Origin: Desulfobacter vibrioformis DSM 8776
GTDB lineage: Bacteria > Desulfobacterota > Desulfobacteria > Desulfobacterales > Desulfobacteraceae
Reading direction: 5' to 3'
Length of the DNA stretch: 64,000 bases
NCBI RefSeq assembly: GCF_000745975.1
Contig: NZ_JQKJ01000022.1
Coordinates: forward strand, 1-64,000
The notes under the pieces are model-generated. The model worked only from the letters and a program-made list of their open reading frames with translations. It did not search any database and had not been told where the DNA came from. Made by a program: the position numbers and the translations under genes. Shown one piece after another: positions 46,805 through 64,000 of this stretch (position 1 is its first letter; every line of letters begins with the position of its first letter).

Positions 46805-47737
46805 TTCTTCACCTCATATTTTGACCAGAAGCTTCGTTTTCGGCCATGGGCCTGAATGATCTTCTCTTTGAAAGCTTCGTGATGATTAAATTCTTTCCAA
46901 TCGGCGACGCTTGCCGCCAGCTTATCTAACTTTTTTAGATACCGAATACCATGGGGATAGGCCTTGGTGTACCCACGTTCCAGAATTGAGGAAAGCAGAT
47001 TGCGGTACATCAGGCTGGTGACAAGACGGCGATCTTCTGACTCCATCGCTTCTGCCAGAGAAAGCAGACTGCCGTAATGATTACCATCAAGCTGGTCGGC
47101 ACGCCCCAGAAGATATTCTTCGGCTTCATCTATCTTCCCGACTGCAATCAGGAATTTGGCATCGGATTCCCGGAGTTTGTCGGTTTTCAGGATTTGCTCA
47201 ACTTCATCATTGATAATATCATTCCGTTTGTCATGACCGATGACATCGAGAAGCGCCTGCAAGGTGTCAGTGGAATGATGGGATCTGTATTTCTGGTACA
47301 GAAGCTCCGTCAGCTTTTCAGAATCACCCTGCTTATGGTAGATCTCCTCAAGGAGCTTATCCCGCTCGTATGCTTGAAAGGTTTCACCTTCCGAAATTTT
47401 CTTCAGCCAGGAATGGGCGGTTTCAACATCTCCGCTTTCAAGGTATACCCGGGCAATATCAATCAGCGCCGCTGTGGACAAATTTCCCCATGAAGCGATG
47501 CGCGTCTTTTCAAACAGCTTTGCATCCTTGATCTGGCGGGCCAGTGATTCGATCAACATCAGGTGATGACGTTTGCCGTATTCATCTTTTTCTTTGTCCG
47601 CCCTTTGCTGAAGCGTTGTAATCATCGTTCGGATAACATCCTCAGGCAGACACACTCCTGCACAATCAATCAAAGTGTCCCGGATGCCGTAATTGTCCTT
47701 TTTATTTACCTTGAGAATGATGTCCGCAATTTTTTCT

Positions 47738-49164
47738 GGCTCATCGCGGATTAGTGTGACAAACACCTAACCCTGCGAGTACCCGTAGTCTAAAATTTTC
47801 AAAATTTCGGTATCCAAAAGCTATGCGTGTTATTACTCTCAGTGCATTATTAGTACCTTCGACAAATCCGTTGGTAACTCGTTCGATAAAATAATTAAGG
47901 ATTTGATCTCGCCAGTTTTTAAAAGTATTTACAAATTTTGCAATAAACTTGTTACCTGTTCGCATAGCCTTTCGACACCATGCATCAAGAAACCGGGCAG
48001 CTTTCTCCCGGCATGTTATTTTTTCGAAAATCGTCCGGAATTCTTCTTTTAGCAAGTACAAAGTACGAAGCTCCGGGCATTCTTGAAATATCTGTTTTAA
48101 CTGATCTTCCTCTTTGTTTGACAATTCAGATCGGTTGCGTACTAAAATCCAGCGGCTGCCTTTAAGTACTTTTTTTAATTCGGGACCACATTGATTTTGA
48201 TATGTTGTTCTGAGCTTCGTCAAGCGCATATTGAGTTGTTTCATTACATGGAAACGATCAACCACAATTTTGGCACGGGGAAGTTTACTACGGGCAGCTT
48301 GATAATAAGGTTTCCACATATCAATGGAAACAAAGCGGATTGACTTTCGACATTCAGGGCTCAACGATTCAATCCAGGCTTCTAATGTTTCTTTTTCTCT
48401 GTTAGGCAGTACTGCAAGAACACATTTTCTTGAAATGTCTGAAATAATAAGAACAAATTGCTTGTAACGTTTTTTAAGGGAAATCTCATCTACTCCCAGA
48501 ACCCTGATTGTATCGCAACTATCTAAATTGTGCTTCAATGCAGCAAAACGATTGAATATTTCTTTAACCGTAGAGTGGCTCAGCCCATTACGTACAGCAA
48601 CAGCCTTACGGGTCGATTCAAGACAGGACTGGTAAACATGTAGTTCAAAGGCAATTGATTGTCTGCGATGGGAATCTACAAAAGGCAATTGCTCAGAAAA
48701 GATCTTATCACAATCTTCGCATTTGAAACGGCGGGCTAAAAAATGCAAAATAGTCTTTTTCCCCCACACATCTAAATGTCGGATTGATCGTTCTTCTTCT
48801 TGATGGACATCCTGTGAAAGGCAACCACAATGAGGGCACAAAGCAACATCATCTCGATGGGCACACCAAAGATGCAGTATTTCGTGATTCCCTTCTCGAC
48901 GAAGGGCATACATTGTTACAAATAAGGTCGCAATGCCCAATAATTCAGTGAGTGTGTTATCCGCCGTTTTTTTGAATTCTGACTTGCTAATTCGTTTCAC
49001 GGCTTTTGATGCGTCCTTTATAAAAGTTGGTATGTACGGTAGTAATTTCATGGGAAAACCTCATTAGTTATTATTGGCCTTTCCCATTATTATATGATTT
49101 GATTACAAATATCTCGCATAAAATTAGCCAACTTACATTTTTTCACACTAATCCGCGATGAGCC
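47738..49164 (-). mobile_element. complete ISL3-family insertion sequence
   Basis: A 1427-bp element with perfect 22-bp terminal inverted repeats at 47738-47759 and 49143-49164, beginning GGCTCATCGCGG, and an 8-bp target duplication TTTTTTCT at 47730-47737 and 49165-49172. ISL3 elements typically make 8-bp duplications and carry ends starting GGCTC. Identical repeats and an intact transposase point to a recent insertion. Confidence 0.97.
47741..49051 (-). CDS. ISL3-family transposase
   Basis: A 436-residue DDE transposase. The N-terminal zinc-binding region has 'CPHCG' and 'FKCEDC'; the catalytic domain has Asp in 'LGVDEISLKK', Asp in 'VSIDMWKPYYQAA' and Glu in 'NGFVEGTNNALRVITRIAFGYRNFENFRLR', the ISL3 C-terminal signature. 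AGG lies before the ATG. The stop codon lies inside the terminal repeat of the element. No disruption is seen. Confidence 0.95.
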   Translation of the reverse strand: MKLLPYIPTFIKDASKAVKRISKSEFKKTADNTLTELLGIATLFVTMYALRREGNHEILHLWCAHRDDVALCPHCGCLSQDVHQEEERSIRHLDVWGKKTILHFLARRFKCEDCDKIFSEQLPFVDSHRRQSIAFELHVYQSCLESTRKAVAVRNGLSHSTVKEIFNRFAALKHNLDSCDTIRVLGVDEISLKKRYKQFVLIISDISRKCVLAVLPNREKETLEAWIESLSPECRKSIRFVSIDMWKPYYQAARSKLPRAKIVVDRFHVMKQLNMRLTKLRTTYQNQCGPELKKVLKGSRWILVRNRSELSNKEEDQLKQIFQECPELRTLYLLKEEFRTIFEKITCREKAARFLDAWCRKAMRTGNKFIAKFVNTFKNWRDQILNYFIERVTNGFVEGTNNALRVITRIAFGYRNFENFRLRVLAGLGVCHTNPR

Positions 49165-49604
49165 TTTTTTCTTTGTCTTTACAGCGTGAGGCATAGTCCA
49201 CAAATAGTTCTTTAGCATCATAGCGGAAAACATCGCCGATATTTCCGCTGGAGTCATCGCACATCTCAAAAATGGTGTTGTCAGCCTCGTAAAATGCTGC
49301 GACAAGTTCAATGCCGGTGAGCGGATCATCCACACCGGATTTTAAATCCTGCAGCAGCATTTCCAATTCTCGGGCAAAACTGGAGGCTCCCCGCCAATCA
49401 ATAAAGCGGTTTGAATGCTTCAGGCCGGAAAGCTTCTTATTAAATCGTTGAACATTTTCCTTTGGGGTGGCAATCAGCTGTTCAATCAGGTCATCCGCCT
49501 CCTCGGAATGGACTGCAAGATTCAATAAGGCATCTGCAAGGGCGTGCGGCCCCAGATCAATCAGTTTTTGTTGGCGGGAATCAGTCATTTGCTTGTCCTC
49601 TAAT

Positions 49605-52600
49605 TCATATTCCAACCCTTGTACAGCCCGGGCCGGACATTGAACTCCGGCCGCCGGATACAGGTGTGATGTTTATCTGGATGCTGATTCTTTCTTTCAG
49701 TGCAGATACATGGGAGATGATTCCGATCAGCTTGGCGTCCTGCTGAAGCCCGGATAGTGTTTCCAGTGCGGTCTCCAGAGCCTCTTCATCCAAGGTGCCG
49801 AAGCCTTCATCCAGAAACAGGGAATCCACTCGGACTTTTCGGCTGGCCATTTGAGATAGCCCCAGCGCCAGCGTCAGGCTGACAATAAAGCTTTCGCCGC
49901 CGGACAGGTTCTTGGCCGAGCGGATTTCACCGGCCTGATAGTTATCGATGACGTTCAGCTCCAACGGCTGCTGTCCATCGCGGATCAGCAGATAGCGATC
50001 GGTCATTTTTTCCAGCTGCCGGTTGGCATGGGATACCATCAGTTCGAAGGTCAGCCCCTGGGCAAAGTTTCGGTACTTTTTCCCGTCGGCTGAACCGATG
50101 AGTCCATGCAGCTTGTCCCAGCGTGCACACTCTTTCTTTTGGGCGTCGATGGCGAACTGCTTTTGCTTTATCCGCTCTTTGGCTGTCGTATTCTCACTTA
50201 AGCGGTGTTTGAGACCGGCAATGGCATCGCGGAGTGTTTTCAGGGATTCGTCATACGCCTTAAACTGCGGCGCAAGCTCCCCAAGCGTCTTGTCAGTGAG
50301 CTTTTTGGCGGTCTCCATGGCCAGACGAGTTTCCCTGTCTTTCTGTTTCGCGTTGAGCTCTGTCCCCGCATTATCCAACTCCTTTGCCCGGGAGGCTAAG
50401 GATTCCCGTTTTTCATGAGGCAGTCTGGCTTCGCGGAAGGATTTCTCATCTGAAAAACCTGCCGGAATCAGAGCCGCTGAAAAGTCGGTTTCCGCTTTTT
50501 TCAGTTCGGGTGCTCTCTGCTCAATGCGCGTCTTAAGAGATTCAACATGAATTTTTGCCGTTGCCAGCTTCTGCTGCAACGCGGTGTTCAGGTCTCTGGC
50601 TTTTTTCTCCGCCTTCTCGGCGACGGCGATAACGTTGTTCAGACGACTTTCTTCCTCATCAGGCTTTTTGTCGCCATACAATTGCTTTCGCTCTTCTGTT
50701 CCGTCGGCCAGTTCTTTTTTCAGCCGTTTCAGATTTTCCTGCTTTTCAGTCAGAGCCTTGACCTGGGTATCAATCACGGCATCAAGACGCTTCAGCTCGC
50801 TGTTGATGTCAGCAATCTGTTTTTCGATGTCAGTCTTTTGTTTTGCCTGCTCCTGCCATGCCTTCAGTCTTGATTTGAGAGATTTGAGCAGTGACTCGAC
50901 CTCTGACTCCGGTATTTTAATAATACCAAGTGGGTGGAGTTTCCCGGTAACTGTCTGTTTGAATTGCTCAAAGCCGGTCTGAAGCTTCGTAAAGAGATCT
51001 TTCAATTCAACGAGCGTTCTTTCCGCGGTCTTCTTGTCATTGGCGGCTTGGGTTTCCAGCTTCTCACTATTATTCAAATTGTTACGAGCAGTGGTTTCTG
51101 CCTGTTCCAGTTTTTTGATGGCGGCTTCCTGTTCGTCTGCCGTGTCGATCAGCTTGGTCAACGATTCTATCTTTTGCTCGATTTCATCGGGAACCGGAAC
51201 ATTGCCCTTTGCAAATGGATGATCGGTTGAGCCGCAGAGAGGGCACGGGTTGCCGTCTTGAAGCTTGGCCCGGTGATCTTCAAGTTCCTCGATTTTCTTG
51301 ATAAAAGCCATCTCACGAAGAAGGGTCTCCTTCTCGGTGCGATATTCCCGGAGCAGTTTGTCACCCAGCAATTCGATCAAGGCATCCTTGACTTGCTTAA
51401 GATTTCTTCCGGTGGTCGCAAGCGCCTGTTTTTTGAGAGAACACTGCTTGGCGGCTTTCTCCAGTTTCTTTGTGGCATCTGCTACGGCCGTATCGGCTTT
51501 TTTGAGGTCAGTTTCTTTCTGGGTGATCTCTTGTTGTTTGGTGAGCAGGTTGCCGAACTGTTCTTCAATACCGGCAAGTCCACTGATCAACCATTCATCC
51601 TGCGCATTCTCTTTGAGGTACAGCTCTGCAGCCCCCATTTTTTTCTCTGCGGCAGTCCGTTTTTCCTGTTCCTTGACCCGGGCCTGCTTGTCTGTCTCAA
51701 TCTTGGCCGCTTCCCTGGTGCAGGCATCAGATCCTTCTGATACAGTTTTTGTCTGTTCCGCAATCTTTTGATCAAGGGACCTTATTTTCTGGATTAACGG
51801 GGCAGCCGTTTTGAGATCCTCTTTGGATTTGAGGGTGAGCTTCTCAGCGGCCTTGTGAACGTCAGCTTGTGTGTTTGCGGCAGTTTCTAACTTAGGAAGT
51901 GCGGCTTCATCTATTTTCAAGGCGGTCTCATCGTCAGACTGCTGCTTGCGCAAGGATGCGAGCGTTGCGTATGTTCCGTCCAGAGATGCGGCCTTGGTGG
52001 CCTTTTCAAGTTTAGCCCTCTCCGGCTTAAACGCTTCGGTATCGGCCTTCAGTTTGGTGGCTTCATCCGTAAGGCTGAGGATCTCCTTTTTCAGCTCTTC
52101 AATGGTGGTCAGCCATGTGATGGCTTTGCCGGTTTCGGTCGCTTTTCCAGCGAGTTCAGTCTCCTGTTTCTGCTTGGCCGTAAGGTCATCCTGAATTTCT
52201 TTTTCCTGTTCCGGCTCCAGAATTACAATGCCGGATGTTTCGGCGTTCAGGATATTCAGCTTTTCCCGCTCATCACGCTGGCGTTCATGAACCCGTCGTG
52301 AGATTTCTGAATAAATTTCGGTGCCGGTGATCTGCTCGAGTGTCTTGGACTTCTGCTCAACGTCAGCCTTGAGGAAGGTATCAAAGCCTCCCTGTGCCAG
52401 TAGAATGGAGCGGGTGAAACGGTCGAAATCCATCCCGGTTTTTTCCTCAATAACCGCACCTACAAGGCTTTTCTTGGTTTCGATAGGCTTGCCCGTAGCA
52501 TCGTCTGCAATCTGGTGTTCCTGATCCTGCAGGTTGCCTTCGGCCTTTTTCCGTGCGCGGCGCTGTTCCCAGTGGCAACGGAACCGGCCAGCCTGGGATT

Positions 52601-52856
52601 CAAAGAGTACCTCGGCGTAGCATTCACCGGTCTGGCGGGACATTATCTCATTCCCGCTCTTGGTGATTTTTCCAAGGCGGGGTGTGGCGCCATAGAGGGC
52701 CAGACAGATGGCATCAAGAATTGTCGACTTGCCCGCACCGGTCGGACCGGTCAGAGCAAAGATCCCGTTGGATACATATTCGGGATCGGTGAAGTCTATG
52801 ACCCATTCGCCATAGAGGGAGTTGAGGTTCTTAAATCGCAGTTCAAGGATTTTCAT
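49605..52856 (-). CDS. sbcC: exonuclease subunit SbcC
   Basis: A 1083-residue Rad50-like ATPase that works with SbcD to open DNA hairpins and process blocked or protein-bound ends. Walker A is 'LTGPTGAGKSTILDAI', coiled coils cover about 180-880, the zinc hook is C-P-L-C-G near residue 535, the ABC signature 'NLSGGESFIVSLTLALGLS' and Walker B 'DSLFLDEGFGTLDEEALE'. An AGAGG site precedes the ATG. It starts 11 bases after sbcD. It sits inside a defence cluster and may be a phage- or island-associated rather than housekeeping copy. Confidence 0.95.
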   Translation of the reverse strand: MKILELRFKNLNSLYGEWVIDFTDPEYVSNGIFALTGPTGAGKSTILDAICLALYGATPRLGKITKSGNEIMSRQTGECYAEVLFESQAGRFRCHWEQRRARKKAEGNLQDQEHQIADDATGKPIETKKSLVGAVIEEKTGMDFDRFTRSILLAQGGFDTFLKADVEQKSKTLEQITGTEIYSEISRRVHERQRDEREKLNILNAETSGIVILEPEQEKEIQDDLTAKQKQETELAGKATETGKAITWLTTIEELKKEILSLTDEATKLKADTEAFKPERAKLEKATKAASLDGTYATLASLRKQQSDDETALKIDEAALPKLETAANTQADVHKAAEKLTLKSKEDLKTAAPLIQKIRSLDQKIAEQTKTVSEGSDACTREAAKIETDKQARVKEQEKRTAAEKKMGAAELYLKENAQDEWLISGLAGIEEQFGNLLTKQQEITQKETDLKKADTAVADATKKLEKAAKQCSLKKQALATTGRNLKQVKDALIELLGDKLLREYRTEKETLLREMAFIKKIEELEDHRAKLQDGNPCPLCGSTDHPFAKGNVPVPDEIEQKIESLTKLIDTADEQEAAIKKLEQAETTARNNLNNSEKLETQAANDKKTAERTLVELKDLFTKLQTGFEQFKQTVTGKLHPLGIIKIPESEVESLLKSLKSRLKAWQEQAKQKTDIEKQIADINSELKRLDAVIDTQVKALTEKQENLKRLKKELADGTEERKQLYGDKKPDEEESRLNNVIAVAEKAEKKARDLNTALQQKLATAKIHVESLKTRIEQRAPELKKAETDFSAALIPAGFSDEKSFREARLPHEKRESLASRAKELDNAGTELNAKQKDRETRLAMETAKKLTDKTLGELAPQFKAYDESLKTLRDAIAGLKHRLSENTTAKERIKQKQFAIDAQKKECARWDKLHGLIGSADGKKYRNFAQGLTFELMVSHANRQLEKMTDRYLLIRDGQQPLELNVIDNYQAGEIRSAKNLSGGESFIVSLTLALGLSQMASRKVRVDSLFLDEGFGTLDEEALETALETLSGLQQDAKLIGIISHVSALKERISIQINITPVSGGRSSMSGPGCTRVGI

Positions 52857-52867
52857 AATCAGCCTCT

Positions 52868-54106
52868 CTATTCTGCGTTTATGTCGTCTTCATGGAGAGA
52901 CTTGATTATTTCGTTATAGGAGACCGTCAGTTCCTCTCGGTCCTCATCCAGTACCCCAAAGGCATCCAGGCAGCGGGTAAAAACATCCCCGGCATCCAGA
53001 TCATCGAGGGTTTCATCTTCCGCGAGCGTACTGATCACTATGTCCATGACACGCCGGTTTTTAATCCGCCTGATTTCCATGGCAGAGTCGACCATGGCCT
53101 CATTGAGCATCTCGCGCAGGTTGCCGATGATGTCGCTGCCGGTGTATTCAATCTCAAGCCAAGCAGAGCTTTCTTCCTTTTTGAGCTCCTCCAGCCTGGC
53201 ATGGATATCATCCAGCGATCCGACAATGCGGACCAGCTCCTGAAAACACGGCACAGGGAGTTCTTGGATATTTGGCGTGGTGCTGTTGAAGTCTATGAGC
53301 ACAACCTTCTTTTTCTGAGTCGCTTCGCCGTAGCCCATGGGAATGGGTGAACCACAGTAGCGGATGTGCTCCGTGCTGCCGACCGCCTGAGGCACATGCA
53401 GATGCCCGAGGGCGAGGTAATCAATTGACGAGGGGAAAACGTCCTCACCGACATGCGCCAGCGATCCCACATACAGCTCTCGAACACCATCACCGTCAAC
53501 CGTCTTGCCGCCTGCAGTAAACAGGTGTCCCATGGCAACGATGGGAATACCATCATGCCCGGAACTTTTGAATTCGGCCCGTTTCTGTTCAGCAGTGGTA
53601 CAGACATCCGCGTAATGGTTTTTCAACCCTTCAACGAGCTTGGCGTTTTTATCGTCGATAGTTTCTCCCGGCTCGACCGTGCGGATATCCTTATCGCGTA
53701 AATAAGGCACAGCGCAGACAATGACCTCCGGCTTATCGTCTGCGTGAAGGACAAAGACCTCATCCTTCAAGGCTTCGGTCATGGAGCCGACCACATACAC
53801 ATTAAGCGCACGCAGCAGTTCTTTGGGAGCATTCAGAAATGACGGCGAATCATGGTTCCCGGCAATCACAACAACATGATGGCAGCAGGATGCCGCAACC
53901 CGGCAGAGGAAACGATAGTAGAGCTCCTGCGCCCGGTTGCTGGGTGTGCTGGTATCGAACACATCACCGGCGACAAGCAGGGCATCGATCTTTTCACTTT
54001 CAATGGTCTGGACCAGCCAATCCAGAAACGCTGAAAACTCCTCATAACGCTTCCTGCCGTAAAGGGAGCGGCCTAAATGCCAGTCTGATGTGTGAAGGAT
54101 TTTCAT
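52868..54106 (-). CDS. sbcD: exonuclease subunit SbcD
   Basis: A 412-residue Mre11-like nuclease subunit. The metallophosphatase motifs are complete: 'HTSDWHLGR', 'LLVAGDVFDT', 'VVIAGNHDSP', 'VAMGHLF' and 'LALGHLHVPQ'. The C-terminal SbcD domain is present. A GGAGG site overlaps the end of the AAA_13 gene, and the ATGA overlap makes the two genes translationally coupled. Works with SbcC. Confidence 0.95.
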   Translation of the reverse strand: MKILHTSDWHLGRSLYGRKRYEEFSAFLDWLVQTIESEKIDALLVAGDVFDTSTPSNRAQELYYRFLCRVAASCCHHVVVIAGNHDSPSFLNAPKELLRALNVYVVGSMTEALKDEVFVLHADDKPEVIVCAVPYLRDKDIRTVEPGETIDDKNAKLVEGLKNHYADVCTTAEQKRAEFKSSGHDGIPIVAMGHLFTAGGKTVDGDGVRELYVGSLAHVGEDVFPSSIDYLALGHLHVPQAVGSTEHIRYCGSPIPMGYGEATQKKKVVLIDFNSTTPNIQELPVPCFQELVRIVGSLDDIHARLEELKKEESSAWLEIEYTGSDIIGNLREMLNEAMVDSAMEIRRIKNRRVMDIVISTLAEDETLDDLDAGDVFTRCLDAFGVLDEDREELTVSYNEIIKSLHEDDINAE

Positions 54107-56553
54107 TGAGCCTCCGCTGCTGTTTGAAGATCTTCAGAAGGTTCCTCGGTCACGCCGATACTTTGTAGTAAGGCCGAATACTGATCGGGGTCCTTTTCCT
54201 TGATTTTCCGCAAGATGAAATTTGCTGTAGTCTTCATCTCTGGAACATCAATAGGTAAAACACTTCTCTCAAATACACCCGCTAAATGAGAGAACTCATT
54301 GTTGATACGATCCGTTAGTGACGCGGCCAATGCATCATCTCCGAAAAAACGCGCCAACTTGTCATCTTTTTCTACGGCATTGGGGTATTTGTAGTACAAG
54401 AATGCTTCAAGGAACTTACGGGCATTGTTCCCAAAGTTGTAGTAGCAATCATGATTCTCATCACACGCGATCTGGGCGTGGGCGCATTTATAAATTTGAT
54501 GAAACAGGAAATTGAACTCTGTGACGTAGTCCTTCAGGTACCGAGGCATCAATGTAATGTCACTGACTTGATTCGTTCGAGTAATGATGAAGTATTGAGA
54601 GTTATTTTTATTCAAAGCGCCTGGAAGTCGCTTCAGATACTTCAAAAAGTCCAGGTTGTGAGTCGAAATGAATAGCTGCTTAAAACGATCACGTTTTTTT
54701 ATCTCACCCCCATCTTCAGATTTCTCAGGCGTTACAATCTCAGTATTGATAAGGCTGTAGACAAAAAAGATATGATTTGCATCCAAGCTGGAGATAGGGT
54801 CGTCGATCCAGATGATCGGCTGGTTGCCTTTAGTTTCTATATCCTCAAGCTTTGCCATGAAGTAACAAAAGGCTATCAGGCTGCATTCTCCCTCACTGAG
54901 GTAGAATGCTTTTTTGTCGTTCCGAGTTACCTCAAACCGATATCCAGATGACGCATCCCCGGGCTTCTCTTCAATGGCTTTGAGGGAAAGGGACTGATGG
55001 CCAAAGAAGTTATTCAGATAGTCGTTTACCCGGTCAGCACCCTTGTTTTCATCTTTTAGCATCGCCTTCAGTTCATTGATCTTTGCTCGCTTTGCATCGA
55101 CCTTTTCCTTTGCAGAGTTCTTAGATGCTTCCGCCTTGCCCATTGCCTCATTCAGCGCAGCAATGGCCGTACATTCATCACCATATTTAATATCATTTAT
55201 GAATGTATAGACTTCATGGAGACGGAGGGCCGCACGAGCTCTTGATTGGTCGGCACTAAGCGAGGCTGTAAACTGGTTTGATTCGTTTCTGCGTTGCTCA
55301 AAAGAACACCTAATTGCATTCAGAGCATCTTCAACCGATTCAGGCACAATAAATTCGAGAGGTGTAAATATATCTTCTTTTCGCTTCTCGATCTGTTCTT
55401 TTATGGAGTCCAATCTCTCACAGTAAGACGTTGATATGATCGATAGCTGTTCTGCCAGCGCATCTAAGTCAGCGGTAAAGTTGAAGTAGAAATCCGAGTT
55501 CTTGATTTTCAGTAAATTGGGAACTCGAGAGCTCTCACGTTCAATTGATCCAAGCAGATTCTCCAATGCTTGACGAAGCGCCTCAGATTCCTGATTAAAA
55601 TGTTTGTCCAGCTTCTCCCATAAATCTTTAGGAAGGTCGCTGCCACAAAATGCGCACTTATCTCTTTTCTCTTGATGGTGGCCCCGACCAGTCCTCACCC
55701 ACGTGGCCAGAGCCGCATCGTTTAGCAATTCTTGAATTGGATCAGATGCCTGAATCTTTTTTTCGATTAACTCTTTAGCCGTTGAAGCGATTGCAGAGTA
55801 TTGAAGATTGAAAGTTGATGACTCAGGGATTTCCGATTTGGGTTCTTCTCTTAGAAGGTCATGAAACTTGCCTACCTGCTCATCAGAAAGCGGAGAGTAA
55901 GTGTCTTTGGTAACAGTCGAGATGTCTGTCTTTATTTTAGGAACATTGTAGTTGGCATCACCAAACGTTTTATTGTGCTTGATACCAGTGCCTGCCTTAT
56001 TGGCTTTATCACGTAACTTTCCCTCCAATTCTGACGACTTGTTGCCATGGTCTTTTCGGGCTTTTTTGAAATTCTCCTCAGCACCAAGGAACTCCCCCAG
56101 CAGTCCAGACTTGTCCTCTTCGCTGCCAAGTTCGGCTTCATGCTTCTCAATTTCTTCCTCAAGCTTTGTGTTGTCTTCACCCAAGATAGCGAATGAATTG
56201 ATGGTCTGTTCGTCATCAACAATGAAACGCAGGTTGTCCCGGACAAAGTCCTCATTGAAAACCCGAACGACCTGACCATGATTGCTTAATGAATTTTGCG
56301 AGGCAGTGCTGCCGCCATTAAAAGCCAATTGAAACTCAGGTGAACTATATTTGTCTGAGATAGAACCGGTTTCAAGAGCTCTGAAAACCCGCGAAAGCGT
56401 TGTTTTACCGGAGTAGTTCCGACCATAAAGAATGTTGATCTTTTTAAATTCTGCGATGTTGTTGCCGCCATCCCTTACAGATGACGCCCAACGGAAGTCC
56501 TTAAAAACCGCCATGTTTTTTATCGATTCAATTTTATTTATCTCACCACTCAT
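54103..56553 (-). CDS. AAA_13 ATPase with zinc-hook-like CxxC, RloC/PrrC-like candidate anticodon nuclease
   Basis: An 816-residue ABC/SMC-type ATPase. Walker A G-R-N-Y-S-G-K-T-T is at 44-52, coiled coil 125-185, C-A-F-C-G at 300-304 between helical arms, coiled coil 460-505, signature 'YLSEGECSLIAF' at 551-562, Walker B 'IIWIDDPISSLDANH' at 580-594 and 'FISTHN' (H-loop) at 628-633. The C-terminal 150 residues hold Arg712-x3-Glu716 and His756. That resembles the Arg-x3-Glu...His triad of PrrC/RloC anticodon nucleases, which cut tRNA when DNA restriction is blocked; RloC also has a CxxC hook. The start at 56553 has GGAGG 9 bases upstream. Sequence resemblance only; nuclease activity is inferred. 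Confidence 0.8.
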   Translation of the reverse strand: MSGEINKIESIKNMAVFKDFRWASSVRDGGNNIAEFKKINILYGRNYSGKTTLSRVFRALETGSISDKYSSPEFQLAFNGGSTASQNSLSNHGQVVRVFNEDFVRDNLRFIVDDEQTINSFAILGEDNTKLEEEIEKHEAELGSEEDKSGLLGEFLGAEENFKKARKDHGNKSSELEGKLRDKANKAGTGIKHNKTFGDANYNVPKIKTDISTVTKDTYSPLSDEQVGKFHDLLREEPKSEIPESSTFNLQYSAIASTAKELIEKKIQASDPIQELLNDAALATWVRTGRGHHQEKRDKCAFCGSDLPKDLWEKLDKHFNQESEALRQALENLLGSIERESSRVPNLLKIKNSDFYFNFTADLDALAEQLSIISTSYCERLDSIKEQIEKRKEDIFTPLEFIVPESVEDALNAIRCSFEQRRNESNQFTASLSADQSRARAALRLHEVYTFINDIKYGDECTAIAALNEAMGKAEASKNSAKEKVDAKRAKINELKAMLKDENKGADRVNDYLNNFFGHQSLSLKAIEEKPGDASSGYRFEVTRNDKKAFYLSEGECSLIAFCYFMAKLEDIETKGNQPIIWIDDPISSLDANHIFFVYSLINTEIVTPEKSEDGGEIKKRDRFKQLFISTHNLDFLKYLKRLPGALNKNNSQYFIITRTNQVSDITLMPRYLKDYVTEFNFLFHQIYKCAHAQIACDENHDCYYNFGNNARKFLEAFLYYKYPNAVEKDDKLARFFGDDALAASLTDRINNEFSHLAGVFERSVLPIDVPEMKTTANFILRKIKEKDPDQYSALLQSIGVTEEPSEDLQTAAEAQ

Positions 56554-56575
56554 CGCTATTTGGCCTCCCTTTTGA

Positions 56576-59500
56576 TTAAACGTACTTCCCTGAAAATTCC
56601 TCAAATGCATTGGTCACGGCGAACTCAACCTCTTTGCCCAGAGCCTTGAAGTGTTCCCTGCCGCATGCAATTTTGGCTTTTTCAGTTGGGCGTAATGCAT
56701 CGGTGAACAACGTACTTTTTGTCTCAACAACAAAGTAGAGTTTATCTTTGCCATCTATCTCAATCAGCACGGCCCAGTCCGGGTTATAGGTCCCAAGTGG
56801 GGTGTCGATTTTGAACCAACCCGGGAGCTTGGCGTACAGTTTAATGTCGTCGCTTCCTTCAAAGGCAGTGGCAAATTCCAACTCTATATCGGAATCGTAG
56901 ACCACATGGTCAAAGACTGATTTCCGGCTTTCAACCATGTTCTTCTGCAGATAGCCAAACAACTCGTTGTCGCTGAACAGTTCCTGAGCGTAAAAATGAT
57001 CATCACCGATCTTATGATATTTAATACCGTCGACCACAAAGAGGCGCATCTGGTGCTGGATAATGGTCGATACCTGCTCGATGAATTTTTGCGGATTGTT
57101 CTTAAATGACTCAAGGCGGCCGCTGTTGTTGATAATTTTAACGATTGTCCGGCGTGTCAGATTGGTCTCGTTCTGGAGATAGGTGATTAGATCCGGCAGA
57201 TCAAAAGATCGTGATTCATAAACGCTGGCAGTTTCCTGAACCTGCTCTGCGTGAACGCCGCCACGGTCAATCTCGGCCCTGGCCTTTCGATAAATAAACC
57301 TGGCTTTTCCCACCTGCAGATTCGCGTTGATCTCTTCAGCGCATTTTGTGGCAAGAGCCTCCGCATCAAAATCCACCCTGAAGGTGGTCTTGTACTTGAT
57401 TCGGTCCCATAGTTCTTTAAACTCCAGACTTAAAAATACAGCTTTATTCAGCTTTACCTTTTTCTTGTCGTCACGGTTCTTGATGTTGAGATTTCCGGAA
57501 ACTTTTTTCAGCACCGCAGCAATTTGCGAGGCGTACGCTTTGAATTCTTCAGGCAATTCCAGCTCGCCGCTTTTCAAGGCTGTTTTCAAGGCGTCTTGAA
57601 CTTTGCCTTTGCTATCAATGTAACCGGCGGTTTTCAGGTGACCCCACAGTTTTTTGGAGGCCTCGACACCGAGGTATTCGTTGTTGTAGTCGTCAACCGG
57701 GACAACGATGTTGGCAAACAGATGCGCTTCAACCACACCGAATTTAATGCCCTCTTCCTGCTCAATCTCTTTTTGTAGTTGCTCGGCAAATTTCTCATAG
57801 GATTCGTTGGCCATAACTGTGAGGGTATTGACCTCAAAACCATGGACCCGCTCACCATCCTGATTGACACATATACGCAGACCACGACCGATTTCCTGCC
57901 GTTTCTTGATAACGGAATTGGTTTCGTTGAGCGTACAGATCTGGAATACGTTGGGATTATCCCACCCTTCTTTTAGTGCGGAGTGTGAGAAAATGAACTT
58001 AAGCTTTGAGTCAAAGCTGAGCAGTTTCTCTTTCTCTTTCATGATCAGGTTGTAGGCACTCTCATCCGCTGCAGTCTTACCGGAGGCATCCTTCAACATT
58101 TCCTTGCCGGTAGCGTCTTTCTTTTTATCGACAGCAAAATACCCGTTATGCACACCGGCAGCCACTGTATCCAAGTCGGCCCCTTCAAAGAGGGTGCTAT
58201 ATTTAGGTTTGCGGATTGCCCGAGCATACTCCTCTTCAAACATCAAAGCGAATTTGCCCTTTTGCGGATTGCCATCCTCGTCGTACCAGCGGTAGTTGGC
58301 AACTTTATCGATGAAAAATAGGCTGAGGACCTTAATATTCAGAGGCTGCAGACGCATCTCTTTATCCAGATGCTCTTCAATGGTCTTGCGGATCTGCAGG
58401 CGCTTGTATTCATCCGGATCGACTTCACCAATGGCCTGACCCAGTTTCAGGATCTCAGGTTTGCTGGTGAAGCTGATGTATTCATTGCCTTTTTCGCAAT
58501 AGATATCCTCGATGATGTATCCATCATAAATATCACGGCCATTGCTGTACTTTGCTTCCAGCAGATCCGCACCGCTTGAGACCACCACGGCCTTGCGTTT
58601 GATGCTTCCGTTCTTCATGCGGCAATCAATCTCTATTTTAGCGGTGATCGGACTTTTCTTGTTGTTTACACTCAAGAGCTTTATATAGGCCTTGTTATGG
58701 CCGTCTTTGACTTCAACCCCGGCAACTTCAATCTGCTTGACCAACTTCTGCTCATATGCATCAACCGAATCCAACTTGTAAAGCATGTGGTGCTTGTCGA
58801 CATGAGTGGCAGAATAACGCAGCGTGCAGAGCGGATTGAGTGAACGGATAGCCTCTTTACTTTTTGAAGTGGTATCCACACTCTGAGGTTCATCCACGAT
58901 AACAATCGGGTTTGTTTCCTGTATGTATTCAATCGGCTTGGCCCCGGTCATCCGGTCATGGGAACGGTGGATAATGTTCGCCTTGTTCTCCTTTGCCGGA
59001 TCAGTGAAGCTCTTTCGGAAAGCATCGATGTTGATTACCATGATTTGAATGTCTGGGCTGGTGGCAAAGTTTCTTACGTCTGAAAGTTTGCTGGAATCGT
59101 AGACAAAATAATCGACACTGACATTATTATACAGCTCTTTGAAATGCTCTGCGGTAATCTCCAATGACTTGGCAACACCCTCTTTGATGGCGATGGACGG
59201 CACGACAATGATGAATTTAGTGAAGCCGTAGAGCCTGTTCATTTCAAAGATGGAGCGCAGATAGACATAGGTCTTTCCCGTCCCGGTCTCCATCTCCACA
59301 GTCAGATGAATGCCGTCCTTGGAGCTGAAAGCATCGGACGGGGCCAGTCCGTTCTGTAGCTGTATCTTGCGGATGTTTTTGTGGATATCCTCATCCAGTA
59401 GCTTCAAGCGGTTACCAATACCCAGATTGTTTTCCATGCCGGGAATGGCTTGTTGGTCCGTGTACTGCAAAGGCGCCACGGTAAAGTTGGTCTGACACAT

Positions 59501-59581
59501 TTCCTGACCTTCAAACACACCGGCGACAGATTCTATAGCCTGCTTCTGGAAGTCCAGATTCGCGTCAAATTGAATTTTCAT
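56576..59581 (-). CDS. res: type III restriction enzyme Res subunit
   Basis: The 1001-residue helicase-nuclease partner of Mod. SF2 motifs: Walker A in 'VEMETGTGKTYVYL' (97-105), DEPQ box in 'IVIVDEPQSVD', then 'TLRYSATH', and late motifs 'ALKEGWDNPNVFQICTLNETNSVIKKRQEIGRGLRI'. The C-terminal nuclease has P-D-W...V-E-T-K ('YNPDWAVLIE', 'FVVETKSTLF'). The start at 59581 has GGAGGT 8 bases upstream; the longer frame enters the upstream repeat. Usually adjacent to mod, but here separated from it by a rhuM gene. Confidence 0.95.
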   Translation of the reverse strand: MKIQFDANLDFQKQAIESVAGVFEGQEMCQTNFTVAPLQYTDQQAIPGMENNLGIGNRLKLLDEDIHKNIRKIQLQNGLAPSDAFSSKDGIHLTVEMETGTGKTYVYLRSIFEMNRLYGFTKFIIVVPSIAIKEGVAKSLEITAEHFKELYNNVSVDYFVYDSSKLSDVRNFATSPDIQIMVINIDAFRKSFTDPAKENKANIIHRSHDRMTGAKPIEYIQETNPIVIVDEPQSVDTTSKSKEAIRSLNPLCTLRYSATHVDKHHMLYKLDSVDAYEQKLVKQIEVAGVEVKDGHNKAYIKLLSVNNKKSPITAKIEIDCRMKNGSIKRKAVVVSSGADLLEAKYSNGRDIYDGYIIEDIYCEKGNEYISFTSKPEILKLGQAIGEVDPDEYKRLQIRKTIEEHLDKEMRLQPLNIKVLSLFFIDKVANYRWYDEDGNPQKGKFALMFEEEYARAIRKPKYSTLFEGADLDTVAAGVHNGYFAVDKKKDATGKEMLKDASGKTAADESAYNLIMKEKEKLLSFDSKLKFIFSHSALKEGWDNPNVFQICTLNETNSVIKKRQEIGRGLRICVNQDGERVHGFEVNTLTVMANESYEKFAEQLQKEIEQEEGIKFGVVEAHLFANIVVPVDDYNNEYLGVEASKKLWGHLKTAGYIDSKGKVQDALKTALKSGELELPEEFKAYASQIAAVLKKVSGNLNIKNRDDKKKVKLNKAVFLSLEFKELWDRIKYKTTFRVDFDAEALATKCAEEINANLQVGKARFIYRKARAEIDRGGVHAEQVQETASVYESRSFDLPDLITYLQNETNLTRRTIVKIINNSGRLESFKNNPQKFIEQVSTIIQHQMRLFVVDGIKYHKIGDDHFYAQELFSDNELFGYLQKNMVESRKSVFDHVVYDSDIELEFATAFEGSDDIKLYAKLPGWFKIDTPLGTYNPDWAVLIEIDGKDKLYFVVETKSTLFTDALRPTEKAKIACGREHFKALGKEVEFAVTNAFEEFSGKYV

Positions 59582-59599
59582 ACTGTACCTCCATGATTT

Positions 59600-59668: not shown

Positions 59669-60688
59669 TTATTCATGGTCACCACCCTTACCTTTTGAGA
59701 CTGATAACTGTTTGATCATTTTGTCGAAGTCGGATTCAATGCGCTGGATCTTGTTGAATCTCTCGTATTCCGCGAAGGCTTTCTCTTCAGCCTTTTTACG
59801 AGAAATGGAGCCGTAGCCTTCAAGGATCTGATATTCGTTAAACTCCAGGAAGCGGTTCACGCTTTCGGCAAAGCTTTCCATGGTAAAGGTCGTGCGGTTC
59901 TCAATAATCCGTTCAATGTAATCAAAAAAGGCAGTGACAGCCCGTTCCAGCTTTCTGATTTCATCTTCTTGTAGATAATTCTTCCCGATGGTCGTGTCTG
60001 ATTTAAGCACTCGGCCGTCCGGTGCATTCTTGTAAGTCATCATTCCCATCAGCGGTTTATCGGCATCCGCATTCTGATAGATGATTTCCGCTGATGTATG
60101 TCCGGTGATAGCGAAGTGGAATTTATCCTGCACATGGGCATAAAAATTACGGGTGATTTTCGACGTGGGATCATAGTCGATACTGCATTCGGAAAAAATG
60201 TCGGTGATCTGCTGATATATACGGCGTTCAGATGCCCGGATGGAGCGGACACGCTCCAACAACTCACGGAAATAGTCCTTGCCGAAATATCGACCATTCT
60301 TCAGCCGCTCATCATCCATGGCAAAGCCCTTGGTGATGTATTCTTTTAGTAACTGAGTGGCCCAGATACGGAACTGAGTGGCCTTGGAGGAGTTTACCCG
60401 GTAACCGACAGAAATGATGGCGTCGAGATTGTAAAATTTAACATTACGCGTCTGAGTTTTCCCCTCAATGGCACCGTGCTGAGTGGTATGTTCCAAAATG
60501 GAACTAACCACTTTTTCCTCCAGCTCACCGGACTCAAAGATGTTCTTCAGGTGCTTGGTGATGGCTGGGCGTTGTACACCAAAAAGCTCGGCAATTCGAT
60601 CTTGCGTCAGCCAAATGGTCTCGTCGTGCAGGATACACTCCACCTTTACCTGTCCATCTGGAGCAGTGTACAGCAGAAATTCCGTCAT
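59669..60688 (-). CDS. rhuM: RhuM-family (virulence-associated) protein
   Basis: A 339-residue protein with the RhuM pattern: winged-helix-like 'DETIWLTQDRIAELFGVQRPAITKHLKNIFESGELEE', 'FYNLDAIISVGYRVNSSKATQFRIWATQLLKEYITKGFAMDDERLKNGRYFGKDYFRELLERVRSIRASERRIYQQITDIFSECSIDYD'. The ATG at 60688 starts at the conserved domain; the frame to 60778 runs through a repeat. RhuM proteins have a Fic/DOC-like region and often lie in restriction loci; the function is unknown. It lies between mod and res, flanked by inverted repeats. Confidence 0.88.
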   Translation of the reverse strand: MTEFLLYTAPDGQVKVECILHDETIWLTQDRIAELFGVQRPAITKHLKNIFESGELEEKVVSSILEHTTQHGAIEGKTQTRNVKFYNLDAIISVGYRVNSSKATQFRIWATQLLKEYITKGFAMDDERLKNGRYFGKDYFRELLERVRSIRASERRIYQQITDIFSECSIDYDPTSKITRNFYAHVQDKFHFAITGHTSAEIIYQNADADKPLMGMMTYKNAPDGRVLKSDTTIGKNYLQEDEIRKLERAVTAFFDYIERIIENRTTFTMESFAESVNRFLEFNEYQILEGYGSISRKKAEEKAFAEYERFNKIQRIESDFDKMIKQLSVSKGKGGDHE

Positions 60689-60714
60689 TTCATCTCGTGT
60701 GGTCAACCTACGTT

Positions 60715-60742
60715 CTTCTGTGTTTCCTGTGTGTTCCGTGGT
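60715..60742. repeat. inverted repeat flanking rhuM, right copy
   Basis: The reverse complement reads ACCACGGAACACACAGGAAA..., matching 59600-59627. It sits in the mod-rhuM gap. Together the copies bracket the rhuM gene. Confidence 0.65.
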
Positions 60743-60774
60743 TACCGTCTTTTTTTGTGTCTTTTTGTGGTTCA

Positions 60775-62646
60775 TCACAGGCTCCTTACATCGACAATGC
60801 CGGCTTGTTTTAGAATCTGAACCGCATTGGTTTTAACCACGTCATCTTTGAAACCGGAGTCCTTGAATACCACGCGCATGATTTCCGGATTAAGCTCATC
60901 TTTCAGCATGGCAATGCCTTCGACTACCTCAAGGGAAATGGCATCTGATAGGCAGATGATCAGAGCTCCCATACCGATATCGAATACCTTTTGACCGGCA
61001 ATGACGTGTTCCGTGATAGGCAGTGTGAGGTCCAGGCCGTACTTAAGCAGGATCTCATAAAGAACATCTTCCTCACGGCGGTCGGATTTGATATTGGAGA
61101 TAAAATCTTCGAGGGTGTGCTCCGTCATATCAAAGTCAACTTCCCACGGTTTGATATTGGTGGAGTCGAGTTTGAATACCTTGAAGCCAAGGTCGACATC
61201 GTATTCAGGATTTTCTTCTTTGATTTTTGTGGCAGACCGACGGATGCGTTCTTTGCTTATTTCGGCGATGTTTTTGTAGCCGGATTTATATGCATAAGAA
61301 CTTTCATTACAGACCTCTGGCAGCTGCACCAATATGAATTTATTTGAACAAGTTAAAGCCAAATTGTAGTCTATCAATGCTTGCGCTGAAGCACCCGAAC
61401 CAGCAAAAAAGTCTAAGAAAATATTATTGTCAGACGAATTGAATCCAATTTCTAATAGCTTATATATAAGACGTGATGGTTTTGGAAAATCAAATATCTT
61501 TGCATTGCCGAATAGCTCTACAAATTGATTTGTTCCATGTTGGGTATATATATCGTCTATTATCGTAAATGGTTTTGTCTTACGGATTTCACCACTTTCA
61601 TCCTTGAGGTACTGCTTAGATGACAAAATCCAATTTCCATCCTTATCCTGAGAAAATTCAATCTCATTCCTTTCAAGGGCGACGTCAACTCTTTCTTTGC
61701 TCCATCTCCATTGCCTTTTTGGCCAAACTGTATCACCATTTGGTGTCCTTATTGGAAAATTCAAGTTATCCCTATCATCAAAACTCTTCATTGCTTCTAG
61801 TGGATGAGTTCTGTATCCACCTTTCTCAGAATAGAACTCATCTTTGTTTTTGTAATAGCGATCAATAGACTCTGCTGGCAACGGTATGTATAGATTATCA
61901 AGAGATTCTTTTGATTTCACATACATCAATGCGTATTCATGCAAGGCTACTAAAAACTTTTCTTTTGCCCCACCGCCATAGCGTTTTTTCCATATAATAG
62001 GATCTACGAAGTTTTCCTCGCCATAAATCTCGTCACACATTTTCCGAAGATTGGAAACTTCATTATCATCGATACTGATAAAAATTACCCCATCATCCTT
62101 CAGCAAATTTCGGGCAAGCTTTAGACGCGGATACATCATATTCAACCAGTCTGTGTGATAACGTCCGCTGGTCTCGGGGTTGTTGGAGAGATTACGCCCC
62201 TCACCATCAACTTGACCAGTGATCTCCTTATAGTTTTTGATGTTGTCCTTGAAGTTATCTTTATAAACAAAGTCCTTGCCAGTGTTGTAAGGCGGATCGA
62301 TATAGATCATCTTTACTTTTTTGTGATAACTCTTCTGCAGGAGTTTGAGCACTTCAAGGTTATCGCCCTCAATGAAAATATTCTGCGTGCTATCCCAATC
62401 TACCGACTCTTCCTTGCAGGGACGCAGGGTGCCGGTGCTGGGGGTCTGGGCAATCATCCGGGCTTTGCTTTTACCGTTCCATGTAAAGCTGTAGCGTTCA
62501 TCGCGATCGTCCACAAACGCACCAAGTACTTCTTTCAGTGCATCAAAGTCGACCTTGCCTTCGGTGAAGGCTTCCGGAAACAGCTCTTTCAGCTTGCCCA
62601 AGTTTTCGGCTACGATGTCCATTGTTTTACCATCCATTTTTTCCAT
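60775..62646 (-). CDS. mod: type III DNA modification methyltransferase Mod (adenine-specific)
   Basis: A 623-residue N6-adenine methyltransferase. Motif IV D-P-P-Y is at 117-120 ('MIYIDPPYNTGKDFVYKDNF') and precedes motif I 'FLDFFAGSGASAQALI' near 415, the beta-class order of type III Mod. The part between them, which holds the target-recognition domain, is visibly more A+T-rich (about 61320-62130) than both flanks, a sign of domain exchange. A GAGG site precedes the ATG. It modifies one strand of an asymmetric site and is needed by Res for target choice. Confidence 0.95.
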   Translation of the reverse strand: MEKMDGKTMDIVAENLGKLKELFPEAFTEGKVDFDALKEVLGAFVDDRDERYSFTWNGKSKARMIAQTPSTGTLRPCKEESVDWDSTQNIFIEGDNLEVLKLLQKSYHKKVKMIYIDPPYNTGKDFVYKDNFKDNIKNYKEITGQVDGEGRNLSNNPETSGRYHTDWLNMMYPRLKLARNLLKDDGVIFISIDDNEVSNLRKMCDEIYGEENFVDPIIWKKRYGGGAKEKFLVALHEYALMYVKSKESLDNLYIPLPAESIDRYYKNKDEFYSEKGGYRTHPLEAMKSFDDRDNLNFPIRTPNGDTVWPKRQWRWSKERVDVALERNEIEFSQDKDGNWILSSKQYLKDESGEIRKTKPFTIIDDIYTQHGTNQFVELFGNAKIFDFPKPSRLIYKLLEIGFNSSDNNIFLDFFAGSGASAQALIDYNLALTCSNKFILVQLPEVCNESSYAYKSGYKNIAEISKERIRRSATKIKEENPEYDVDLGFKVFKLDSTNIKPWEVDFDMTEHTLEDFISNIKSDRREEDVLYEILLKYGLDLTLPITEHVIAGQKVFDIGMGALIICLSDAISLEVVEGIAMLKDELNPEIMRVVFKDSGFKDDVVKTNAVQILKQAGIVDVRSL

Positions 62647-62676: not shown

Positions 62677-63456
62677 TTATAGCATTTGGGCCAGTTGCTT
62701 GAGCTCTTGTTCAAATTTCTTGATTTGTGTATTCAACTCCACCTGCCGGTTAAAGGCCGCTTTTTTCAGCTGCCCGCGTAGCTCCGACATTTTTGATTCA
62801 ATTTCCCGGCACCGTGTCAACCGTTCGAGCCGATCCATAGCTTTGCCGATGGTAAAGATCCCGGATAACACCGAGCATTCGTATCCGGTAAAACGATCCG
62901 TCCAGGCATTGTATAAAGTGCCATAGGTTTGAAGCGGCATATTACTCCATGCAAGTGATGCGAGAAAATCATTTTCATTATCGTTTAATGCCTCACTATT
63001 CATCCAGCCGGTGGTATAGAAACGCTCGGCAACAAAAGCGCCATGCTCGGCCTGACTGAAACGCTTAGGTGCGATGCTCAGGGCTATATCTCCGCTTTCG
63101 GTATAGAAGCCCAGCATCAATGGATACGGAATGACCCGGTGGATAATTTCTGCGATTCGTTTGTGGCTACTTTTCTTATTTTTCTGGGGGGAATTCATTT
63201 CAACCTGTAGAACCGCCACCTCAAGGTATTCCCGTTCATTGTCTCTGTAAGGAAGAATCGGACAGGTTGATGTCTTTAGGGTATATTCCCAATACACGTT
63301 TTGCACGTTTTCCCGAAACAGCTTTTTATCACTGGCGACAAGTTCACCACTTTCAAGAAACTGCTTTTTAGGAACGCGTTTGCCCAGCAGGGCCGCCTCT
63401 GGAAAGGAGATGGCATTCCAGATATTTTTAATGGCGGCCTTTTTATTATCCGGCAT
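62677..63456 (-). CDS. DUF4391 domain-containing protein
   Basis: A 259-residue protein of the DUF4391 family, which typically lies between a helicase gene and mod in type III-like loci. It has 'FPEAALLGKRVPKKQFLE', 'VQNVYWEYTLKTSTCPI' and 'VAVLQVEMNSPQ', a C-terminal coiled coil (about 215-255, Glu/Gln/Lys-rich) and no recognised catalytic motif. A GGAGG site lies 7 bases before the ATG, and the gene overlaps the helicase gene by 11 bp. Probably an accessory or adaptor subunit. Confidence 0.87.
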   Translation of the reverse strand: MPDNKKAAIKNIWNAISFPEAALLGKRVPKKQFLESGELVASDKKLFRENVQNVYWEYTLKTSTCPILPYRDNEREYLEVAVLQVEMNSPQKNKKSSHKRIAEIIHRVIPYPLMLGFYTESGDIALSIAPKRFSQAEHGAFVAERFYTTGWMNSEALNDNENDFLASLAWSNMPLQTYGTLYNAWTDRFTGYECSVLSGIFTIGKAMDRLERLTRCREIESKMSELRGQLKKAAFNRQVELNTQIKKFEQELKQLAQML

Positions 63457-64000
63457 CGTCGGCCTCCTCCCCCAGAAGGATCAGGTAGTTGACCACTTCA
63501 AAGTCATCCATGCCCTTAAAGCTGTTTTTATTGATTACAGTCCCGCCGGGAGAGAAAAGACTCTCTACGCCACGCTCTTCAGCCGCACCGGTCAGGGCCT
63601 GCACTGCTTTGGAAAGCAGATTACGGTAGTGAGACATATCGGAACCATTGCGTGTCAGGCCGGAAAGCCGGGTTGTGGCTACGCTATCAACGGACTTTCC
63701 ATGGATGCTCATCTTTTTCAGCCGATCCAGAATTTTCTTGGTCTGGGTGAACTGTAAAAGAACTGAACCGTCGTTCTTCACATAGACCAGATAGAAAGGC
63801 GATAATGCATAGGTGGAGTCTGAAACGGTTTGAGCGCCTTCATTTTTGAGGCAAAAAATCACTCCGGGTGAGAACTCATCTTGTAAAGAGTCGTCGATTA
63901 TGGCCACGGCATATCCGCCATAGGGTATACGCTCAAGCAGGTTCTCATGCTCTTTTATGTAATCGCTGAGATCCATACGAAAATCGTTCAAAGTAAGGTC
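63446..64000 (-). CDS. C-terminal part of a helicase-related protein of type III R-M loci (cut by window edge)
   Basis: The frame is open to the right edge; 184 C-terminal residues are visible. 'ENLLERIPYGGYAVAIIDD', 'SPGVIFCLKNE', 'LSPFYLVYVKNDGSVLLQFTQTKKILDRLKKM' and 'DMSHYRNLLSKAVQAL' match the tail of the SNF2-like helicases that precede DUF4391 in these operons. The helicase motifs themselves lie beyond the window, so the call rests on the tail and gene order. Confidence 0.75.
   Translation of the reverse strand, partial: DLTLNDFRMDLSDYIKEHENLLERIPYGGYAVAIIDDSLQDEFSPGVIFCLKNEGAQTVSDSTYALSPFYLVYVKNDGSVLLQFTQTKKILDRLKKMSIHGKSVDSVATTRLSGLTRNGSDMSHYRNLLSKAVQALTGAAEERGVESLFSPGGTVINKNSFKGMDDFEVVNYLILLGEEADDAG

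Follow-up and report, generated by a model that had tools for sequence, protein, structure and literature searches.

A putative RloC-family nuclease gene overlapping sbcDC in a type III restriction-modification operon of Desulfobacter vibrioformis

In Desulfobacter vibrioformis DSM 8776, a gene for an RloC-like protein lies between a type III restriction-modification (R-M) system and sbcDC, which raises the question of whether its product is an RloC and whether these neighbours act together. RloC cleaves tRNA at the anticodon with excision of the wobble nucleotide, is activated by linear DNA and responds to zinc; SbcCD acts on DNA ends. The gene was found in a 64,000-nucleotide stretch of DNA (positions 1 to 64,000 of contig NZ_JQKJ01000022.1, assembly GCF_000745975.1), which was analyzed as a whole and is called the window. 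The original prediction, made from the letters alone, had proposed an RloC-like anticodon nuclease beside a type III res gene, and the linkage to sbcD and sbcC was absent from it. In our reading, the locus is a defence operon that has a Mre11-Rad50-type complex of its own and an effector that can be exchanged.

The RloC-family protein and its C-terminal domain

The gene and the features of its product are as follows.

54103..56553, minus strand: rloC-like gene, 816 aa, with ABC-ATPase head, helical/CxxC hook insert and C-terminal HEPN-like domain
56401..56424, minus strand: Walker A GRNYSGKT (G44-RNYS-GKT, canonical)
55645..55656, minus strand: CAFC zinc-hook motif, C300-C303
54886..54900, minus strand: ABC signature LSEGE, residues 552-556
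54781..54807, minus strand: Walker B/D-loop IDDPISSLD, residues 583-591
54406..54420, minus strand: R712-x3-E716, placed by alignment rows and the PrrC profile comparison
54286..54309, minus strand: R749-x6-H756, a HEPN-type R-x4-6-H motif in which S755 precedes the His
54145..54549, minus strand: C-terminal domain, residues 669-803, HEPN-like in the model

The open reading frame (ORF) is undamaged, giving 816 aa from a start at 56553, with the frame open to 56610. Pfam AAA_13, with a cut-off of 36, matched residues 21-781 at 511 bits, which bears out the AAA_13 ATPase head proposed originally, and the protein was the sole AAA_13 match in the host genome assembly at E ≤0.001. The PADLOC model PDLC04887 of PDC-S06, a phage defence candidate whose library entry gives no description of mechanism or partner, covered the full length of the protein with 1091 bits, and the PADLOC PrrC model gave 47 bits over residues 493-717. 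A sequence search for related solved structures returned none at E up to 1, and four phage records gave partial matches of 23-26%.

The RloC group has been defined by the triad R-x3-E-x36-52-H, often with Ser before the His, by a CxxC hook insert and by a length of 658-897 aa, and RloC mutants of the triad are inactive (PMC2610378). The window protein has an ABC-ATPase head with Walker A, signature, Walker B and switch His, a CxxC hook within a long helical insert, 39 residues between E716 and H756 with S755 directly before the His, and 816 aa. The split ABC head, coiled-coil/CxxC insert, C-terminal triad and size are the same as in the RloCs of Geobacillus kaustophilus and Acinetobacter baylyi (PMC2610378, PMC3874168). 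By every sequence feature that defines RloC, the window protein is a member of this family, which is predicted to halt protein synthesis through tRNA cutting under phage attack. It resembles PrrC of EcoprrI in its triad, which is in register with two PrrC-family proteins, and in having an R-M system alongside. In contrast to PrrC proteins, which span 341-416 aa without a hook insert (PMC2610378), it is about twice the size, carries the hook and is linked to type III instead of type Ic genes. The C-A-F-C hook had been placed between helical arms, and AlphaFold2 indeed modelled helices on both sides of it, with low confidence in the hook stretch itself; the Arg712-x3-Glu716 and His756 set likewise lies at the predicted positions of the 816-aa ORF. 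The Walker A motif had been called a variant. This was wrong, as GRNYSGKT is an exact G-x4-G-K-T, and a variant motif is ruled out.

Conservation was counted over 89 rows including the window, 88 of them different. The peptide patterns behind the main genome search were NYSGKTTL and NHIFF; the search made no use of the triad or the hook, so their invariance was not built in. Five loci (L001, L002, L003, L008 and L017; L numbers denote surveyed loci) were excluded beforehand, ORFs shorter than 600 aa were dropped (L034 twice, L030, and L006 twice), and the row of L050, taken from a 4121-aa ORF, was trimmed to the window columns for the tree. C300, C303, R712 and E716 were present in 89 of 89 rows, and R749, S755 and H756 in all 88 rows with letters at these positions, the remaining row being a cut copy. 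Loss of Arg, Glu or His among close homologues, which would have spoken against the original prediction, was thus not observed (R 89/89, E 89/89, H 88/88). The spacing from E to H ranged from 37 to 45, and N46, Y47, G49, K50 and T51 were identical in each of the 87 rows, counting the window, that have letters at these positions.

A 60-row profile of the window family (L094 excluded for one stop, several loci not entered) was compared by hhalign with two aligned PrrC-family proteins, giving a probability of 95.8 and an E value of 7e-9, with a PrrC side of two rows from the phylum of the window. R712, E716, R749, S755 and H756 stood opposite R291, E295, R324, S330 and H331 of the PrrC protein, and one of the two PrrC-family proteins has a RhuM-type ORF ahead of it, as judged by eye. 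The C-terminal part therefore aligns with the PrrC family, triad in register, and not with some other AAA_13 subfamily. Together with the invariant hook and triad, this register supports the sequence-based reading of the protein as a candidate RloC-like anticodon nuclease.

The full-length AlphaFold2 model had a mean predicted local distance difference test score (pLDDT) of 81.8 and a predicted template modelling score (pTM) of 0.49. Its head is Rad50-like, matching 5da9_B with Z 18.8 and a root-mean-square deviation of 3.7 over 289 residues. Modelled alone, the C-terminal domain reached pLDDT 78.7 and pTM 0.76, and the top 14 rows of its VIA-align comparison (Z 8.2 to 5.6, with unrelated entries from Z 4.1) included eight titled HEPN; the remaining six we take to be HepT, Las1 or HEPN-like. 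This list agrees with the published assignment of both nuclease domains, that of PrrC and that of RloC, to the HEPN superfamily (PMC3710099). The defining HEPN motif, R-x4-6-H (PMC3710099), is represented by R749-x6-H756 in all 88 rows with letters. The model is thus suggestive of a HEPN-like C-terminal domain.

Linkage to sbcDC and exchange of the upstream gene

Directly downstream of rloC are the genes for an SbcCD complex, and the gene upstream of sbcD differs in a related genome.

54103..54106, minus strand: ATGA overlap of the rloC stop and the sbcD start
52868..54106, minus strand: sbcD, Mre11-type nuclease, 412 aa, motifs present
49605..52856, minus strand: sbcC, Rad50-type ATPase, 1083 aa, with CPLC hook, Walker A and LSGGE
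54116..56565, no strand assigned: exchange block; a genome of the same genus (G004) has collinear flanks with an OLD-TOPRIM gene in this place

SbcD carries the phosphoesterase motifs and SbcC the hook and Walker motifs of the family. Both match the Pfam SbcCD models; TIGR00619 scored over its cut-off, and TIGR00618 gave 347 bits, under its cut-off of 478.5. The window copy differs from the usual SbcCD in standing in a defence operon, and from a second copy in the host genome, on contig C1 behind a DUF1016/YhcG gene, with which the window shares just sbcDC, a PRiA4_ORF3 gene and one stretch of 96 bp. Within the genus sbcD is patchy, with a match (E ≤0.001) in 7 of 18 other genomes, some of them incomplete, and three at 74% identity or more. 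In three genus loci sbcDC is accompanied by a pRiA4b ORF-3-like gene (window 46214-46804, L130 2952-3645, L131 12303-13028), which suggests that they move as a unit. Additional genes were seen between sbcD and sbcC, namely a small RhuM-like gene (L020 13679-14593, L026 13682-14758), one for a 23S rRNA-intervening-sequence protein (L130 7001-7375) and a PDDEXK_3 gene (L132 6674-7105).

The linkage by an ATGA overlap distinguishes the window gene from known RloCs. The accessible text of two RloC reports names SbcC, SbcD, Rad50 and Mre11 as comparisons, not as partner genes (PMC2610378, PMC3874168). Our literature search, which covered titles, the beginnings of abstracts and selected passages, found SbcCD nowhere described in RloC or R-M operons. 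The text of a paper on BREX diversity has no SbcC, SbcD, Mre11, RloC or PrrC (PMC12839542), and in the accessible part of a review on SMC-based immunity, the Rad50 complexes discussed are those that act against viruses of human cells, and defence operons with SbcCD are not treated (PMC10586767).

From the RloC side, 80 genome loci were surveyed, 65 of which had at least 1.5 kb beyond RloC. SbcD, detected by tblastn with the window SbcD at E 1e-6 (a remote SbcD could escape), lay directly downstream of RloC in 4 of these 65 (L020, L026, L047 and L076), and also in L018 at a contig end. Upstream of the pair, L020 has a DUF2326 gene and a set read as type I hsdM/hsdS/hsdR, L018 has BREX-type PglX, PglZ and BrxL, L047 has a DUF499/DUF1156/SNF2 set, L026 has a res-like fragment (28% identity over ~190 residues), and L076 has little sequence. 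Collinearity of L020, L018 and L026 with the window ends at 56554-56568, which is 1-15 bp ahead of the rloC start codon, and no match goes on beyond that point. The four-base overlap of rloC and sbcD was present in the window, L018, L020, L047 and L129 (ATGA) and in L026 (GTGA), and other upstream genes overlap sbcD in the same way in L168, L169 and L199 (all ATGA). The order sbcD-sbcC-rloC was found in Epilithonimonas (L039, Bacteroidota), where a Wadjet-type gene follows, and on a Chitinibacter plasmid (L017, Betaproteobacteria). Two further observations concern RloC loci: a reverse-transcriptase/nitrilase gene (PADLOC RT_UG5-nitrilase, 1042 bits) lies just before PglX-PglZ-BrxL-RloC-SbcD at L018 350-3388, and on a Pseudomonas plasmid (L013 11998-24219), with no SbcD in view, a relative of RloC stands beside genes annotated as anti-phage (PLD-like, DUF1156, DUF3780 and DUF499).

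In G004, locus L130 is 87-91% identical in DNA to the window over res, sbcC and most of sbcD, and between them rloC is replaced, to within 13 bp, by a gene whose product has AAA_15 and OLD-like TOPRIM domains. A gap of 133 bp, and no overlap, separates this gene from sbcD. OLD-TOPRIM nucleases (Old, GajA, AriA) thus occupy the same res-sbcD slot, and differ from RloC in belonging to another ATPase family and in having a TOPRIM instead of a HEPN-like domain. Elsewhere in G004, a split rloC overlaps another sbcD. Two contigs of a viral collection carry close relatives of the window SbcD. On L168 the SbcD is 93% identical and comes after a PDC-S06 protein (model PDLC04893) that has marginal BLAST similarity to the window RloC (E 1e-4), with CVLC at 378 and R763-x3-E-x50-H818, a triad identified by pattern, not alignment; on L169 a 92% identical SbcD follows SIR2-HerA, itself behind an hsdR-like gene. 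A strictly RloC-specific SbcCD partnership is ruled out by OLD-TOPRIM and SIR2-HerA in the same slot. At L199 (4860-7922) a 1020-aa protein with an N-terminus that appears PHP-like by eye and a partial PADLOC Ppl match has an ATGA overlap with sbcD, and is another candidate effector of the slot. Genes with a DUF2779 annotation or match occur near sbcDC on two Campylobacterota plasmids (L166, L167) and directly after sbcC on L168. DrmA and DrmB of DISARM in L202 were not counted as one operon with sbcD, from which they lie several kb upstream with a transposase-like ORF (by eye) between.

To view the linkage from the SbcD side, we scanned 42 close loci (L170-L197, L099-L111 and L127), leaving out the more distant L112-L126; the sample represents the closest SbcD relatives and is no census. 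In five loci the upstream sequence was shorter than 300 bp; in 26 of the remaining 37, an ORF of at least 100 aa lay upstream on the same strand. The control was recN from the same phylum sample, with 30 loci, one of which had too little flank, and such an ORF in 18 of 29. PADLOC (E ≤1e-12) identified defence families in at least 9 of the 26 ORFs directly upstream of sbcD, the matches listed including four PDC-S06, two AbiEii, one AbiEi, one type I REase and one SoFic, and gave no match for the 18 ORFs directly upstream of recN. The one-sided hypergeometric probability for 9/26 versus 0/18, ignoring relatedness, is ~0.004. The four PDC-S06 loci are L177, L193, L187 and L127 (L187 being the L076 locus), and L100 additionally carries an OLD-TOPRIM gene upstream of sbcD. 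A count based on our labels (10/29 SbcD loci versus 0/30 for recN) was set aside as partly circular, the labels having come in part from SbcD loci.

The type III operon and its neighbours

Upstream of rloC, the operon continues on the same strand.

56576..59584, minus strand: res, type III restriction subunit, 1002 aa from the likely ATG (frame open to 59650)
59669..60778, minus strand: RhuM-family protein
60775..62646, minus strand: mod, type III methyltransferase, 623 aa
62677..63456, minus strand: DUF4391 protein
63446..64000, minus strand: C-terminal end of a helicase (Helicase_C, SNF2/ResIII matches), 1079 aa in full, extending to ~66685 of the contig

The gene order is therefore DUF4391, mod, rhuM, res, rloC, sbcD, sbcC, with res ending 22 bp ahead of rloC (res boundary 56576). 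Mod has the DPPY and F-x-G-x-G motifs, Res has the ResIII helicase and endonuclease domains, and PADLOC found both members of the pair to be full length, confirming the adjacency to a type III system on which the original prediction had relied. Among the surveyed RloC loci, 16 carry a member of clusters read as type I hsd genes, the HsdM and HsdS labels having been assigned by size and order of the neighbour clusters and the HsdR label being borne out by a PADLOC match for L172, which belongs to the same BLAST group; in L096 a type III-like res directly precedes RloC. Linkage to type I or III R-M was described for 8 of 72 RloCs in 2008 (PMC2610378). PrrC-like proteins are likewise known from loci with R-M and RhuM genes (PMC3710099), both of which are found in the window operon, and the main text of that report, figures apart, has no SbcD or Mre11. 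RloC beside type III R-M and RhuM is thus an ordinary arrangement, and the type III linkage had already been reported (PMC2610378).

A few genes downstream of sbcC, the window has a second, short RhuM-family ORF (45663-46217, 184 aa, positions 1-89 of the 252 of the model). The window also contains two parts of a DUF6880 gene (46801-49615), at 49148-49615 (model 8-149) and 46801-47766 (model 145-472), with an ISL3-family transposase gene (47741-49051) between them.

Cooperation, hitchhiking and the RNA target

Our preferred reading, to which we give about an even chance, is that the RloC-family ABC-ATPase/HEPN nuclease serves as a second line of defence in a single mod-res-rloC-sbcDC operon and that SbcCD acts on the same DNA ends. 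The type III enzyme would cut unmodified incoming DNA and thereby make ends; the Rad50-like head and hook of RloC would recognise linear DNA ends, and ATP would unlock the C-terminal domain, which would then cut tRNA in the anticodon loop and stop translation. SbcCD, presumably coupled to rloC in translation, may trim or unblock the same ends, and so destroy phage DNA or set how long the end signal lasts. The role of SbcCD and a coupling between RloC and the R-M system are our inference, and tRNA would be the target here by analogy with known RloCs. More tentatively, SbcCD might be the shared DNA-end module of a modular class of defence operons in Desulfobacterota and some Gammaproteobacteria. 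These would combine an upstream modification system (type I, type III, BREX or DUF1156/SNF2) with an exchangeable effector, and SbcCD would sense or present broken DNA to license it; RloC, distant RloC-like proteins, OLD-TOPRIM, SIR2-HerA and PHP-ATPase would be such effectors, mostly coupled to sbcD by stop/start overlap. We regard this wider reading as a possibility rather than an expectation.

Several observations weigh against cooperation of RloC and SbcCD as a fixed pair. Of 65 RloC loci, 61 gave no SbcD match immediately downstream. In the flanks surveyed around seven close relatives (L019, L021-L025 and L029), no labelled R-M or SbcDC cluster was found, and two linked rloC copies are decayed, one split in G004 and one fragmented on the Chitinibacter plasmid. 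Nor is there strict co-evolution: RloC of L018 is 86% identical to that of the window and SbcD 72% (first half), and L168 combines a 93% identical SbcD with a marginally similar RloC-like protein. In the RloC tree the SbcD-linked rows were scattered, with seven changes for seven rows (L039 counted) and 500 of 500 shuffles as low. In the SbcD tree, the RloC-linked rows took six changes for eight rows, at least three of them forced by starred branches, and 84 of 500 shuffles were as low; the window paired with L020 (99/96) inside the same-genus group (91/85, not starred). Because the trees are scattered and the identities in L018 and L168 unequal, these sequence comparisons speak for modular exchange rather than one co-inherited RloC-SbcD pair. 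The same paucity of linkage is what would be expected if sbcDC were a hitchhiker or an insertion hotspot and RloC worked alone like known RloCs. This chief rival also draws on the very mixed genes upstream of sbcDC (RloC, RloC-like, OLD-TOPRIM, SIR2-HerA, HsdR, AbiE, SoFic, PHP-ATPase and, by eye, a PIN-like ORF) and on seven same-order sbcDC loci (L154, L157, L159-L163) that match no labelled R-M, BREX, RloC or RhuM genes. However, sbcDC itself appears mobile, given its 92-93% identical SbcD on two viral-collection contigs and the second copy in the host genome, and it is patchy within the genus; upstream genes of four kinds (RloC, RloC-like, HerA and PHP-ATPase) share the four-base overlap with sbcD, and the linkage also exists as sbcD-sbcC-rloC in Bacteroidota and Betaproteobacteria. 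We therefore consider hitchhiking plausible, though somewhat doubtful.

SbcCD could instead be an off-switch or clean-up arm, removing ends or repairing self-inflicted breaks, so that RloC would fire once ends outlast SbcCD. Consistent with this, the RloC of G. kaustophilus needs activating linear DNA in order to stay on and is inhibited by DNase I added after activation (PMC3874168), the SbcCD family acts on DNA ends, and translational coupling would match the levels of RloC and SbcD. However, SbcCD that creates or presents ends would fit equally well, and we think the off-switch rather unlikely. A different doubt concerns the substrate, as the HEPN-like domain might be an RNase for mRNA, rRNA or other tRNA sites and no anticodon nuclease. 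HEPN domains include mRNA- and rRNA-processing nucleases (PMC3710099), the leading fold matches were HEPN toxins and Las1-type entries, and the RloC assignment follows the group definition, not an alignment to a biochemically tested RloC sequence. The fold comparison itself tempers the anticodon nuclease reading: for a helical bundle, a Z near 8 is suggestive only and no proof, and Foldseek with the C-terminal domain alone gave no match at E ≤0.001. In contrast, the length class, the hook, the triad spacing and the Ser before the His are those of the defined RloC group, and the triad is in register with PrrC-family proteins. Cleavage of other RNAs is thus improbable in our view.

If the preferred reading of a cooperating operon holds, the locus pairs RloC with a DNA cutter, the restriction enzyme, and with a dedicated DNA-end machine, so that the source and handling of the ends that activate RloC become directly testable. 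An OLD-TOPRIM gene that occupies the whole place of rloC, with the same res and sbcD on either side, would likewise mark SbcCD, usually viewed as a housekeeping repair complex, as a recurring component of defence.

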